Shown: positions 24,201 through 55,023 of the stretch, one piece after another
How the letters are laid out: every line of letters starts with the position of its first letter
Numbering within the stretch: position 1 is the first letter of the stretch
From: an uncultured Oscillospiraceae bacterium
GTDB lineage: Bacteria > Bacillota > Clostridia > Oscillospirales > Oscillospiraceae
Direction of reading: 5' to 3'
Assembly: GCA_949494735.1 (NCBI GenBank)
Contig: CATABD010000007.1
Coordinates: forward strand, 1-58,289
DNA: 58,289 nucleotides
Notes under the pieces: generated by a model
Seen by the model: the letters and a program-made list of their open reading frames with translations, nothing else
Database searches by the model: none
What the model was told of the DNA's origin: nothing
Program-made: the position numbers and the translations under genes

Positions 24201-24263
24201 AGTAAGCAAAACGAAGCGGATCAAAGTTCTTTTTGCTTACTTTTTCTTTCAAGAAAAAGTAAG
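24201..24263 (-). repeat. Overlapping inverted repeats between potB and potCD
   Basis: A perfect 13-bp hairpin (CTTACTTTTTCTT at 24236-24248 with AAGAAAAAGTAAG at 24251-24263) shares its left part with a second inverted repeat, AGTAAGCAAA (24201-24210) with TTTGCTTACT (24232-24241). The two stems are mutually exclusive. The AT-rich composition is unlike the surrounding coding DNA. It may be a dispersed repeat or an mRNA processing element that sets potCD relative to potAB. Confidence 0.6.
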
Positions 24264-24266
24264 TCA

Positions 24267-25118
24267 TCAGAGCATCACCGCCTGTTCCTCGCCCTCGCCG
24301 AAGTGGTTCATGACCACCATGCACACCACCACGATGACCATCATCACCATGGAGATGGCGGCGCCCAGGTGGGGGTTGTAGGCCCCGCCCAGAAATTGCA
24401 GCTCAATCAAATCGCCCAGCATCATCTGGTTGCCGCCCCCCAGGAGGTTGGAGATGGCAAACGTGGACACGGACGGCACAAACACCATAGTCACCCCGGA
24501 CAGGATGCCGGGCAGGGACAGGGGGAAGATGACCTTGCGGAATACCCGCACCCCGTCCGCCCCCAGGTCCCGGGCAGCCTCGACAAGGGAGCCGTCCAGC
24601 TTGACGATGACGGAATAGATGGGCAGGATCATGAAGGGCAGGTAGTTATACACCATGCCCAGCACCACCGCGCCGGGGGTGCCGATCATCTGGAGGTGAT
24701 CCACCCCCAGCAGATCCAGCAGGCCGGCGGCCCGGAACAGCTGGTTGAGCAGGCCGTTGTTTTCCAGGATGGACATCCAGGAGTAGGTACGCAGCAGGAA
24801 GTTCATCCACATGGGCAGCATGATGAGGGCCATGGCCAGACGCTGGAACCGGGGGCCCTCCTTGGCCATCCAGTAGGACACGGGGTAGCCGATAAGCAGG
24901 CACACCAGGGTGGCCAGCACCGCCAGCCAGAAGGAGCGCAGGAACACGCTCAGGTACAGCCCCATGCCGGTGAAATTACCCAGGGTTGCCTGGGCGGCGC
25001 CGGTGGCGGGGTCGGCGGCGGTGAAGGCGTATACCGCCATGATGATAATGGGGACAACCACAAACAGGGCCATCCAGATCACGTAGGGGAAGGCAAACCA
25101 GCCGCGCTTACTCCTCAT
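24267..25118 (-). CDS. potB: Spermidine/putrescine ABC transporter permease PotB
   Basis: A 283-residue permease with six membrane helices and the EAA loop [20 protein letters not shown]. It forms the channel with the PotC half of the fused protein. The start overlaps the end of potA by 11 bp, so the two are translationally coupled. Downstream, a 109-bp gap with the overlapping inverted repeats precedes potCD. Confidence 0.93.
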
Positions 25119-26484: not shown

Positions 26485-26654
26485 TATCCTCGCGCTTCTC
26501 AGGTTTTCACGGATAGCGAGATACATAATAGCGGCTTGACCACCATTTGTCAATCATTTTCAGGGGATTTTCCTGGTATTTTGTCGCGAGTTTTTTGGAG
26601 GGGCCGGCGGGCGCTTTCCAGCCCGGAACGGGGTGGAACCTTTGGGAATAGGGT

Positions 26655-26683
26655 TTGACAACATCCGGCCCGGCTGATATAAT
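26655..26683 (+). promoter_or_regulatory. Consensus SigA promoter of the ABC exporter operon
   Basis: TTGACA (26655-26660), a 17-bp spacer, and TATAAT (26678-26683): a perfect match to both boxes. Transcription should start near 26690, giving an untranslated leader of about 145 bases. So strong a promoter implies control after initiation, consistent with the attenuator that follows. Confidence 0.9.
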
Positions 26684-26745
26684 GAGATTTGGCAAAAGAG
26701 CGCCGAAAAGGTGCCTTTTCCACCCCATATAAAGGAGAGGAGGGG

Positions 26746-26778
26746 ATGGCTACGGTGAAATTGAGAACTTCCTTCTAA
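26746..26778 (+). CDS. Leader peptide MATVKLRTSF
   Basis: A 10-codon ORF with an excellent ribosome site (AAGGAGAGGAGG) ending in TAA at 26778. It carries Lys5-Leu6-Arg7, a +X+ tripeptide of the type known to stall ribosomes carrying a macrolide in the exit tunnel. The stop codon lies in arm 1 of the attenuator (26771-26777). With Leu6 in the P site, a stalled ribosome would cover bases to about 26777, exactly masking arm 1. Being this short, it is read as a regulatory peptide, not a functional protein. Confidence 0.7.
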   Translation: MATVKLRTSF

Positions 26779-26830
26779 CCGATAGAAGGAAATAAAATTT
26801 GATCCTTCTATCGCGTATTGCAATAGGAGG
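26771..26830 (+). promoter_or_regulatory. Four-arm translational attenuator of the ABC exporter
   Basis: Arm 1 CCTTCTA (26771-26777) pairs with arm 2 TAGAAGG (26783-26789). Arm 3 CCTTCTAT (26804-26811) pairs with arm 4 ATAGGAGG (26823-26830), with one G-U; arm 4 contains the exporter's ribosome site. The alternative 2:3 pairing, CGATAGAAGG (26780-26789) with CCTTCTATCG (26804-26813), is 10 bp, perfect, and frees the ribosome site. This is the ermC-type switch: stalling in the leader ORF blocks arm 1, arm 2 captures arm 3, and translation of the ATG at 26836 is released. Confidence 0.75.
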
Positions 26831-26835
26831 TCCAA

Positions 26836-28434
26836 ATGAAAAAATATGAACGGCAGAACCGCCCCTGGCTGATAGGGGCATTGGGTAGTGTACTCGCCGC
26901 CAGTCTCTTCGGGGTGGCGCTGCAATTCTTCAAGGGCGAGGTGCTGGACAGCGCCATCGCGGGCCAGGGGGCGCGGACGCTGAGGTACGGCCTGGCCCTG
27001 GCGGGCTTTATTTTGGGCGAGATACTGTTTTTCCACCTCTACAGGCGGCTGGGGGATCGGTTCGCTGCGGGCTGCGTCACGGCCCTGAAGCAGGATGTGT
27101 TCGAGAGTGTCCTGCGGCGGGACTACGTGGTCTTCAAGGGGCGCACGCAGGGGGAGTACGCGGCGAAGTACACCGGCGAGGCAGACGCCATCCGTGCCCG
27201 GCGGTTCTGTATGCTACCGCTGTTCTGGGAGATCGCCTTTAAGATTGTGCTGGTCAGCGGGGCGCTGTTTTTGCTGGACTGGCGGGTGGCGCTGCTTACC
27301 ATCGCGCTGCTGACCACGCCGCTGTATATCCCCAAGCTCATCGAAAAGCGCTCCCAGCGGGCGCAGACGGCCTTCCTCCAGGCGGCGGAAGAGGCGCTGT
27401 CCGGGGTGACAGACTGGCTCCACGGCTTCGAACTCATCAAAAATTTCGCCGTGGAGGACAAAATTCTGGCCCGCTTCCGGCGGCTCAACCAGAACGCCGG
27501 GGAAAAGCTGCTGGACGATTTGAAGCTGGGGGCGGCGGCGCAGCTCATCACCACGCTGATGTCCTACCTGTCCTATTTCATTGTGCTGGCCTGCTCGGCA
27601 TGGCTGGTACTCCGGGGGGATTTTTCCGCCGGGGACTTTTTTGTGGCCATCGGCATGATTGACCAGCTGTCCTATCCCATTATCTCGCTGGCGGGGATTG
27701 TCCGGCAGCTGTCGGCCATCCGGCCCGCCTGCCGGGAGATGGAGCGGTTTATTGATGAGCCGCCCGGGGGCGGCCAGCGGGACGCGGCCCCCAGGCTGTG
27801 CCGGGAGATCCGCTTTCATGAGGTGCACTTTGGCTACGAGGGCCGGGGGACGGTGCTGGACGGATTCGACCTTACCGTCCGAAAGGGCGGACGTTACCTC
27901 TTGAAAGGGCCCAGCGGCTGCGGCAAAACCACGGCGGTAAACCTGCTGCTGCGCTACTATGAGCCGGACGGGGGGGAGATTACCGTGGACGGCTTGCCGC
28001 TGGGCGAGTCGGGCGACCCCTACACCAGGGCGACGGTGGTGCGTCAGGAGGCGGTGCTGTTTCGCGGCACCCTGCGGGATAACCTGAGCATGTACCGGGA
28101 CATCCCGGAGGAGCGGCTTCTGGAGGCGCTGGCCGGCGTGGGGCTGGGGCGCTTTGCCCGGCCCGATGCCCTGGAGGCCATGGTGGAGGAGGGCGGAGCC
28201 AACCTCTCCGGCGGGGAGAAAAAGCGGGTCTGCCTGGCCCGCGCCCTGCTGCGGGACACGGAACTGCTGATTTTGGACGAGCCGCTGGCCAACCTGGACA
28301 AGGGGACGGCGGGGCGCATTGAGGATTTGCTGCTGTCCATCCGGGACAGGACGCTGCTGGTGGTGTCCCACCAGTTCAGCCCCGAAAAGCTGACGGGGTT
28401 TGACCGGGTGGTGGACATGGCGGCGGACGGCTGA
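26836..28434 (+). CDS. ABC exporter, fused membrane and ATPase domains
   Basis: A 532-residue half-transporter of the type I exporter fold. Residues 1 to about 310 form the membrane domain with six helices; the ATPase follows with P-loop GPSGCGKTT (358-366), signature LSGGE (457-461), Walker B LLILDEP with Asp481-Glu482, and the VVSHQ switch histidine. It is probably a homodimer exporting a small hydrophobic molecule, peptide or lipid; the substrate is unknown. It starts six bases after GGAGG, which sits in arm 4 of the attenuator. The inducible leader suggests a drug-response role (inference). The formyltransferase-like gene follows after 20 bp. Confidence 0.9.
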   Translation: MKKYERQNRPWLIGALGSVLAASLFGVALQFFKGEVLDSAIAGQGARTLRYGLALAGFILGEILFFHLYRRLGDRFAAGCVTALKQDVFESVLRRDYVVFKGRTQGEYAAKYTGEADAIRARRFCMLPLFWEIAFKIVLVSGALFLLDWRVALLTIALLTTPLYIPKLIEKRSQRAQTAFLQAAEEALSGVTDWLHGFELIKNFAVEDKILARFRRLNQNAGEKLLDDLKLGAAAQLITTLMSYLSYFIVLACSAWLVLRGDFSAGDFFVAIGMIDQLSYPIISLAGIVRQLSAIRPACREMERFIDEPPGGGQRDAAPRLCREIRFHEVHFGYEGRGTVLDGFDLTVRKGGRYLLKGPSGCGKTTAVNLLLRYYEPDGGEITVDGLPLGESGDPYTRATVVRQEAVLFRGTLRDNLSMYRDIPEERLLEALAGVGLGRFARPDALEAMVEEGGANLSGGEKKRVCLARALLRDTELLILDEPLANLDKGTAGRIEDLLLSIRDRTLLVVSHQFSPEKLTGFDRVVDMAADG

Positions 28435-28454: not shown

Positions 28455-29231
28455 GTGAAAACCGCCTACCTGGGCATCGACCTGCTAAAGCCTGTGCTGG
28501 ACGCCCTGCTGGGGGAGGGGTGCCGGGTTTTGAAGCTGTTCACCTGCCCGGTGGACAACGTGACGGAGACCAACACCGCCGTCATCGGAACCGCCCGGGA
28601 ACGGGGCATCCCCTGTACCCAGGCGCGGATTACCGCCGCCGACCTGGATTGGCTGGCCTCCCAGGGCTGCGGGCTGCTGGTGTGCGCGGGATACTATTAC
28701 CGCGTCCCGGTGACGGACGCCTTCCCTATGGTAAATTTCCACCCCACCCCCCTGCCTGTGGGCCGGGGGTCGTGGCCTATGCCCCGGCTGATCCTGGAGG
28801 GGGCGGGACTTGGCGGCGTCACCGCCCACAAAATGGCGGCGGAATTCGACACGGGGGATATTCTGCTTCAGGAGCGTTTTCCCCTGGACGGGCGGGAGGA
28901 CCACCAGACCTATATGAAAAAGGTATACGCCAAAATCCCCGCCATGGTTCATGCGCTGGTGGGCGGACTGCCCCAGGTGCTGGCGGGGGCGTCTCCCCAG
29001 GGGGCGGGGGAGTACTGGCCCCTGCCCACGGAACAGGACTGGACCGTTACGCCGGACATGGACGCTGGCCAGGCGGACCGCATCCTGCGGGCCTTTTATG
29101 GCTACGAGTGCGTCTACCGGGACGGGACGGGCAGGACGGAGCTGACCGGGGGCCGGGTAGTCCCGGGCGCGGGGCCCTTTCCCGTGAGGGGCGGGCACAT
29201 CCGGGCGGACAGGGCCAGACGGCTGAGCTGA
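28455..29231 (+). CDS. Formyltransferase family protein (Fmt-like)
   Basis: A 258-residue protein with the formyl-transferase fold, shorter than methionyl-tRNA formyltransferase (about 310). The 10-formyl-tetrahydrofolate site is recognisable: Asn94-x-His96 in VNFHPTPLPVGRG and Asp132 in EFDTGDILLQ, matching the Asn-His-Asp triad. The missing C-terminal tRNA-binding domain argues against initiator tRNA as substrate; an amino sugar or small amine is more likely, but unproven. It starts with GTG behind GGGGGAG and sits in the same operon as the exporter, ending at a strong terminator. Confidence 0.83.
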   Translation: MKTAYLGIDLLKPVLDALLGEGCRVLKLFTCPVDNVTETNTAVIGTARERGIPCTQARITAADLDWLASQGCGLLVCAGYYYRVPVTDAFPMVNFHPTPLPVGRGSWPMPRLILEGAGLGGVTAHKMAAEFDTGDILLQERFPLDGREDHQTYMKKVYAKIPAMVHALVGGLPQVLAGASPQGAGEYWPLPTEQDWTVTPDMDAGQADRILRAFYGYECVYRDGTGRTELTGGRVVPGAGPFPVRGGHIRADRARRLS

Positions 29232-29241
29232 GCAAAAACAA

Positions 29242-29281
29242 AAAAGGACCCCGGGCGCAATCAGCGCCCGGGGTCCTTTTT
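29242..29281. terminator. Bidirectional terminator between convergent operons
   Basis: A 17-18 bp stem (AAAAGGACCCCGGGCGC and complement, loop AATCA) flanked by A and T tracts, serving the plus-strand formyltransferase and the minus-strand cupin gene. Confidence 0.88.
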
Positions 29282-54659: not shown

Positions 54660-54850
54660 TTATAGGACCCCCGCCGTGGCCGTGCCGCCCCATTAAAAAC
54701 CTGCACAAGAATGCAGGTGGGTCGCCTCCGCTTGGTTTTACCGCTCCCAACGTCCAGAATCCTCCGGAGAGGGCCGGGAGGTCTGCGAACCACCGCGCGA
54801 GTGGGGCGTCCCGTTTCAGAAATGTGGGTTTTAACAGGGCAAGGTCACGT
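54660..54850 (-). ncRNA. ssrS: 6S RNA candidate
   Basis: A roughly 190-base non-coding segment, terminated by an intrinsic terminator. Its 3' half carries GCGGTAAAACC, GGAGGCGACCCACCTGCATT and a downstream AGGT partner, recalling the 6S pattern in E. coli (CCTTAAAAC... GACGACACATTCACCTT). The 5' half has CTGAAACGGGACGCCCCAC and CGGTGGTTCGC as in the 6S left arm. The ends can close by GACC/GGTC. 6S binds RNA polymerase and tunes transcription in stationary phase. The match is by eye. Confidence 0.6.
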
Positions 54851-55023
54851 AGTTAGAACCCGGCAGGGGTAAATGCGTTTGAGCCGTTGCGCACAGCGGG
54901 CTAACGCCGAAGCGCAGGGAAAACCGGGGCGGGGCCGCAGGCCCCAAAACGGTTTTCCCGAAGTCGGAGGGGTTAGAACCGCGTCATGCGCAGGCGAAAC
55001 GTAGGTGCGATGCGTTTGAGCCG
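54851..55023. repeat. Direct repeats flanking a 43-bp hairpin
   Basis: GTTAGAACC (54852-54860 and 54972-54980) and ATGCGTTTGAGCCG (54873-54886 and 55010-55023) occur in the same order twice. Between them is a hairpin, GGGAAAACCG (54917-54926) with CGGTTTTCCC (54950-54959), with an inner GGGGC/GCCCC stem. It could be a degenerate duplication or an RNA structure. Confidence 0.5.

Follow-up and report, generated by a model that had tools for sequence, protein, structure and literature searches.

A putative ermC-like translational attenuator with a Lys-X-Arg leader peptide precedes an ABC half-exporter in uncultured Oscillospiraceae

In attenuation of the ermC type (ermCL-ermC; the logic is named in PMC4191407 and PMC5118997), a short leader ORF is followed by mutually exclusive hairpins, the last of which holds the Shine-Dalgarno sequence of a 23S rRNA methyltransferase gene, and a ribosome stalled on the leader frees that sequence. 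PMC8298421 and PMC6238534 describe +X+ as the stall motif for ketolides and, among others, for macrolides, the P site holding X while the A site takes the next positively charged residue; for ErmDL, PMC8298421 places the Leu of Arg-Leu-Arg in the P site of the stalled ribosome and Arg in its A site. The very short leaders of mef(E)/mel, msr(A), msr(C), erm(D) and erm(K) carry tripeptides of the type R/K-L-R/K according to PMC4335068, where the leader mef(E)L, MTASMRLR, controls an MFS efflux pump and msr(C) appears with MTASMKLRFELLNNN, its leader containing MKLRF. Leader control of ABC half-exporters is described in PMC4191407 for bmrB-bmrCD of Bacillus subtilis, in which a leader peptide sensing 50S-targeting drugs acts by transcriptional attenuation; for multidrug ABC transporters, its authors present this case as the first of its kind. 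Among titles and abstract openings, we found no description of a translational +X+ attenuator before an ABC exporter, subscription journals lying mostly outside this coverage, which leaves absence unproven.

The window analyzed here, a 58,289-nt stretch of DNA from an uncultured Oscillospiraceae bacterium (contig CATABD010000007.1), contains a leader ORF with its own ribosome site, followed by four arms whose pairings exclude one another and the last of which holds the Shine-Dalgarno sequence of an ABC half-exporter gene (Table 1). An earlier note on this DNA had proposed an erm-type attenuator, following ermC logic, before an ABC exporter. Comparison with relatives and modeling of ribosome positions support this, and we consider it likely that the element is an ermC-like, ribosome-operated translational attenuator with a +X+ leader. 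Though it would work like ermC attenuation, the element is no erm determinant: the downstream gene encodes ABC_membrane plus ABC_tran domains instead of a 23S rRNA methyltransferase, and the leader is 7-10 residues long with K-[L/R]-R. ErmCL stalls by a sequence other than K-[L/R]-R.

Table 1. Coordinates of the candidate attenuator and the genes behind it in the window
Feature	Coordinates	Strand	Details
Consensus sigma-70 promoter	26655..26683	+	TTGACA-17-TATAAT; 12/12 matches, TG ahead of -10
Ribosome site of leader ORF	26733..26745	+	purine-rich, AGGAGAGGAGGGG
Leader ORF	26746..26778	+	MATVKLRTSF*, ATG 26746 to TAA 26778; alternative start GTG 26755 gives (f)M-K-L-R-T-S-F
+X+ codons	26758..26766	+	AAA TTG AGA = Lys-Leu-Arg; presumed stall with Leu (26761-26763) in P site
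Arm 1	26769..26777	+	TTCCTTCTA; overlaps last leader codons and stop; 9/9 pairs with arm 2
Arm 2	26780..26791	+	CGATAGAAGGAA; partners arm 1 (via 26783-26791) or arm 3 (via 26780-26790)
Arm 3	26803..26813	+	TCCTTCTATCG; partners arm 2 (11 bp) or, via 26804-26811, arm 4 (8 bp, one G-U)
Arm 4	26823..26830	+	ATAGGAGG; holds exporter Shine-Dalgarno AGGAGG 26825-26830
ABC half-exporter, presumed regulated gene	26836..28434	+	532 aa, ATG 26836; PF00664 (ABC_membrane) and PF00005 (ABC_tran) above cut-off
Formyltransferase-fold protein	28455..29231	+	258 aa; PF00551 N-terminal domain; second gene of presumed operon, in window's genus only

The four arms with mutually exclusive pairings that had been read from the letters are present at 26769-26830. 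Helix 1:2, given earlier as 7 bp, has 9 bp; helix 2:3 is a perfect 10 bp as claimed, or 11 bp counting one extra A-U; and helix 3:4, with 8 bp including one G-U as read by eye, hides the exporter ribosome site and is also paired in the minimum free-energy (MFE) fold. This MFE structure of the ribosome-free leader RNA consists of 1:2 plus 3:4 at -48.4 kcal/mol, compared with -33.92 +/- 3.59 kcal/mol for 200 dinucleotide shuffles, none of which was as low (0/200). We also ran a crude repeat test on both window strands, scoring an 8-mer followed by its reverse complement and then by the same 8-mer at attenuator-like spacing. The + strand gave a single start (26770) and the - strand two, of which one is this same element; among 40 first-order resampled windows, 2 had any match. 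The same test picked up an A+T-rich stem-loop with repeated 8-mers between polyamine-type transporter genes (about 24210-24270, - strand). Inverted repeats are common between genes, and the arms might on that ground be a chance pattern or a non-regulatory repeat. The z-score of the fold (-4.03) and the fact that covariance models recover the element from three further genera, each time ahead of an orthologue of this exporter, speak against this, and since conservation already contradicts it we give it practically no weight. The window element is real and above chance, and its conservation in 13 relatives is far stronger evidence than the repeat test. No Rfam family matched the attenuator at gathering score, the sole match being PhotoRC-II (E 0.7, half its gathering score). 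Elsewhere in the window, a 6S RNA match (54664-54872, - strand) lies at the edge of the Rfam gathering score (47.6 vs 46.4 bits).

Upstream, the perfect consensus promoter claimed in the earlier note is borne out, and the 12/12 match recurs in both same-genus orthologues; in the 11 other relatives, 6 to 9 of the 12 positions match. A 5´ hairpin just past the promoter (26690-26722, + strand), possibly an mRNA stabilizer, is predicted in the same-genus relative G021 too and is different in the other, G032. As to the proposed 10-codon leader ORF, both the ORF and its ribosome site are present, but ATG 26746 is not a conserved start: the codon directly ahead of Val is ATG in 12 of the 14 leaders found, GTG in G021 and ACG in the window. 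Given this ACG where relatives have a start, the window leader may begin at ATG 26746 or at GTG 26755, and Lys-Leu-Arg is present in either case.

The fourteen leaders, window included, come from four genera of one family, and all precede orthologues of the same ABC half-exporter; in the 13 relatives, the stretch available for comparison is 314 to 530 residues long and 61-88% identical to the window's protein. In the window's genus, the exporter is found in 3 of 42 genomes (own, G021 with 88% and G032 with 78% identity), and the upstream regions of G021 and G032 align to the window across the attenuator. A covariance model (R2) built from these three leaders matched 11 of 400 family genomes at E <= 0.1. 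Besides the own genome and G021, four genomes of the same family belonging to three other genera (G391, G287, G410 and G270; E 3.7e-9 to 5.7e-6) carry the leader ahead of an exporter that shares 62-63% identity with that of the window, and five weak matches (G305, G133, G447, G118 and G172; E 0.001 to 0.031) contained no such leader on reading. When 400 family genomes were searched with the exporter protein (E <= 1e-70), six were returned (own, G021, G391, G287, G410 and G270), which are the same six that carry the attenuator at E <= 5.7e-6; the two 400-genome sets list the same genomes and have the same tally of 245 good genomes and 106 genera, and are thus apparently identical. With a second model (R3), built from seven leaders, the element was recovered from 8 of 35 genomes of G410's genus and from 1 of 3 of G270's, and the exporter is present in 2 of 34 genomes of the genus of G391. 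Order-wide searches returned the own copy only (1/394 by exporter, 1/320 by R3); the other known carriers were not in the order samples, so these searches bound frequency, not range. Based on the genus, family and order counts, the attenuator is rare, patchy and, as far as seen, limited to one family. Exporter matches on plasmids were all below 60% identity among the best 5000 records, no relative was found on viral contigs, and a contig search with the exporter gave one close match (G021) plus four at 24-27% identity.

Across these relatives, the leader, its +X+ motif and the arms, on whose conservation the earlier note had staked its proposal, are retained, with K-X-R and helix 2:3 kept in all 14. 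The leader core reads V-K-[L/R]-R-[T/I/V/F]-S-F-stop in 14/14, with K-L-R in three leaders and K-R-R in 11; the Lys-Leu-Arg noted in the window is thus an instance of a motif whose Lys and closing Arg are kept throughout. Val is encoded by GTG (11) or GTA (3), Lys by AAA (11) or AAG (3), and X by TTG (2) or TTA (1) for Leu in the window's genus and by CGC (10) or CGT (1) for Arg in the rest. The closing Arg of K-X-R is AGA (3), CGT (5) or CGG (6), followed by a codon for T, I, V or F; TCC TTC, which is also arm 1, is found in all 14, and the stop is TAA (10) or TGA (4). The retention of Lys and Arg through synonymous codons argues for selection on the peptide and not on RNA alone, and on this codon evidence the leader peptide is under selection. 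The pairing record indicates that the arms are under selection as well. All 11 pairs of helix 2:3 are formed in all 14 leaders, and all nine of helix 1:2 in 13, with 8/9 in G819. Arm 3 is identical throughout. A single position of arm 2 varies, with G in place of A in G032 and G270, and the last base of arm 1 changes from A to G in G287, G827, G826 and G825, a G-U pair being kept in each case. Compensatory arm changes had been proposed as a check: pairing is kept by G-U changes, but because the arms are near-invariant, covariation is limited to these. Linkers between arms 2 and 3 (9 to 16 nt) show little likeness among leaders, and a comparison of seven exporter genes across the K-L-R and K-R-R groups gave 45-60% identity at third codon positions. 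Arm 4 differs by group (ATAGGAGG versus AATAGAAAGGATA and variants), and in the seven leaders folded with a ribosome at the stop codon it is predicted to pair back on arm 3 with the ribosome site inside.

In the proposed mechanism, ribosomes translating the leader without drug would reach its stop codon and cover arms 1 and 2, so that 3:4 pairs and the exporter ribosome site is hidden; RNA free of leader ribosomes would likewise hide the site through 1:2 plus 3:4. With a drug in the peptide exit tunnel, the ribosome would halt at Lys-X-Arg with X in the P site and cover arm 1 alone. Arm 2 would then capture arm 3, arm 4 would be released and the ABC exporter made. We modeled ribosome positions by masking nucleotides -14 to +15 around the P-site codon and computing the openness of the exporter ribosome site. 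Mean openness over the 14 leaders was 0.29 with the mask at V, 0.67 at K, 0.65 at X and 0.52 at R, falling to 0.12, 0.10 and 0.10 at the three codons that follow. Stalling at K, X or R would thus turn the switch on, and a ribosome passing to the end would leave it off. The earlier claim that a ribosome with Leu in the P site covers arm 1 holds in silico, where the stalled ribosome occupies arm 1 only and the terminating one leaves 3:4 in place: the X mask opened the site more than the stop mask in 14/14, also with the mask edge shifted one base either way. The Lys mask opens the site as well as the X mask does, and the geometry therefore does not single out X. As a control, the stretch from the Arg codon to the ribosome site was shuffled; a switch of at least 0.25 was obtained in 17 of 560 shuffles versus 10 of the 14 real leaders.

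In these models, switch strength is uneven among the relatives and weak in two. With the mask, the ribosome site of G032 is only 0.17 unpaired, and for G270 the values are 0.21 vs 0.12 by the AAGGAT measure and 0.61 vs 0.17 with another choice of site. The ribosome-free fold is already partly open in four K-R-R leaders (G828 0.64, G827 0.65, G831 0.57 and G826 0.81), and shuffles matched or beat the real switch in 1/40 for G032, 5/40 for G827, 7/40 for G831 and 9/40 for G826. The open folds and shuffle-matched switches imply that in these leaders the off state has to come from a ribosome at the stop codon or from 1:2 folding first.

The same models bear on what the leader might sense. Phenicols prefer Ala, Ser or Thr before the P site. 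A chloramphenicol-type stall at the conserved Ser-Phe-stop was rejected as the inducing event, since the ribosome would cover arm 2 and 3:4 would stay shut. Alternatively, the same switch might respond to a lack of charged tRNA-Arg or tRNA-Lys, as in amino-acid attenuation, in place of a drug. An Arg-starved ribosome would have X in its P site and hence be placed as in a drug stall; moreover, conservation falls on Lys and Arg, and leaders of the larger group contain two consecutive Arg codons. Leaders of amino-acid operons, however, usually hold runs of the sensed residue, where here there are one or two, with a single Arg in the window's group; Lys is conserved as much as Arg, and the downstream gene encodes an exporter and no biosynthesis protein. 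We regard starvation as an improbable signal.

We also weighed the level at which the drug-responsive switch would act. Described leader-controlled efflux genes use transcriptional attenuation (PMC4191407, PMC4335068), and hairpins acting on RNA polymerase as in bmrBCD or mef(E) could be expected here too. In the window, however, the stretch from leader to exporter contains no terminator-like hairpin followed by a run of T, no terminator-like site was found on the + strand from 26577 to 26988, which covers the leader-exporter gap, and the last hairpin holds the ribosome site. Control of initiation is thus the better reading, and transcriptional attenuation, ruled out as the main mechanism, is very improbable. 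The same features set the locus apart from its closest described counterparts. The earlier note knew of no such control of an ABC half-exporter plus formyltransferase operon; for ABC half-exporters, leader control by ribosome-targeting drugs is in print with bmrB-bmrCD, albeit as a transcriptional case, with a 53-residue leader and two ABC genes (PMC4191407). Here the leader has 7-10 residues, neither an intrinsic terminator nor an antiterminator separates leader and exporter, and a single ABC gene is followed by a formyltransferase-fold gene instead of a second half-transporter. According to PMC4335068, transcriptional attenuation governs mef(E) and erm(K), unlike this terminator-free element. 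Mef belongs to the MFS pumps and Msr to the ABC-F proteins, whereas the window gene encodes an ABC exporter; no homology is described between the arms of the mef(E), msr or erm leaders and those of the window. ErmDL, whose Arg-Leu-Arg is of the same tripeptide type as Lys-Leu-Arg, controls an erm gene from a leader of a 14-residue family, and its stalling is experimental (PMC8298421), whereas stalling here is presumed from sequence.

For the translational switch, the inducers are probably macrolides or ketolides, since +X+ is their known stall motif. The exporter itself gives the type of transporter: transmembrane and ATPase domains are fused as in type IV ABC half-exporters, no NCBIfam subfamily reached its cut-off among the best 25 of 177 matches, the best of which are generic type IV exporters, and the best solved relatives by sequence are P-glycoprotein-like ABCB proteins (E 1e-65 and weaker), a likeness that points to the type of exporter and not to its cargo. 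With these best family matches below curated cut-offs and the cargo not readable, the leader might instead sense a non-macrolide ligand of the exit tunnel or peptidyl transferase, such as a peptide or metabolite from neighbors or from the cell itself, which the exporter would remove; leader peptides can respond to ligands of several kinds, TnaC and SpeFL being named in PMC10314930. Yet Lys/Arg-X-Lys/Arg is described as a macrolide and ketolide motif (PMC8298421, PMC6238534), and the macrolide-resistance leaders of Table 3 in PMC4335068 (MTASMRLR, MTASMRLK, MTASMKLRF...) share the tripeptide type. We therefore hold such a ligand to be rather unlikely, and drug efflux to be the likeliest purpose of the exporter.

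The earlier note had placed the formyltransferase in the attenuator-controlled unit. It stands behind the exporter in 3/3 genomes of the window's genus and in 0/4 genomes of the other genera read, this count covering four of the 11 other-genus carriers; as part of a conserved regulated unit it is ruled out, and it is incidental to the attenuator, although probably co-expressed with the exporter in the window's genus. The protein falls short of the NCBIfam Fmt equivalog for methionyl-tRNA formyltransferase (53.3 bits vs a cut-off of 201.5). Among solved structures, a GDP-sugar formyltransferase comes closest to it by sequence (E 4e-9), with N-x-H-P and D-x-G aligned, stretches that we take to hold the catalytic residues of formyltransferases. 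Among 300 family genomes, 10 had a match at E <= 1e-15, own included; the window's exporter was not found beside the gene in the nine others, two of these stretches having weak ABC matches about 5 kb off at 30% identity. Three relatives (L048, L055 and L056, in G332, G308 and G211) adjoin MATE transporters whose C-terminal part is a histidine-kinase-like ATPase domain (3/3 tested, MatE plus HATPase_c_2), and at L056 the gene ahead of the MATE protein resembles, by eye, an anti-sigma-antagonist (STAS) protein. A formyltransferase beside an exporter thus recurs, with differing exporters. At L051, L052 and L053 (G257, G123 and G339), the protein ahead of the formyltransferase relative starts MDxIPL...LDG.TGSELLKRGMPAG and, by eye, looks like a methyltransferase of the homocysteine/methionine type. 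A literature search joining formyltransferase, antibiotic resistance, efflux and N-formylation found nothing. Behind the window's formyltransferase, a very long palindromic terminator-like hairpin (29241-29281, 18 pairs counted) was called on the - strand; being symmetric, it may end both converging units.

It is conceivable, if doubtful, that the locus provides uncultured Oscillospiraceae-like gut bacteria with a dedicated efflux system of macrolide type that can be induced, in which a previously undescribed single-gene family of ABC half-exporters always comes with its own +X+ translational attenuator and, in one genus, a formyltransferase would modify the drug or a drug-derived amine before export. 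If induction as proposed holds true, a standard leader motif would assign an inducer class to an ABC exporter family whose sequence does not reveal its cargo, and this in gut bacteria known chiefly from metagenome-assembled genomes. The element would then be a translational counterpart to the transcriptional bmrBCD, and +X+ leaders with different X (Leu or Arg) would have persisted before a single pump through deep divergence. With L or R at the X position, the 14 natural variants provide a ready test set for how far +X+ stalling tolerates changes in its middle residue.
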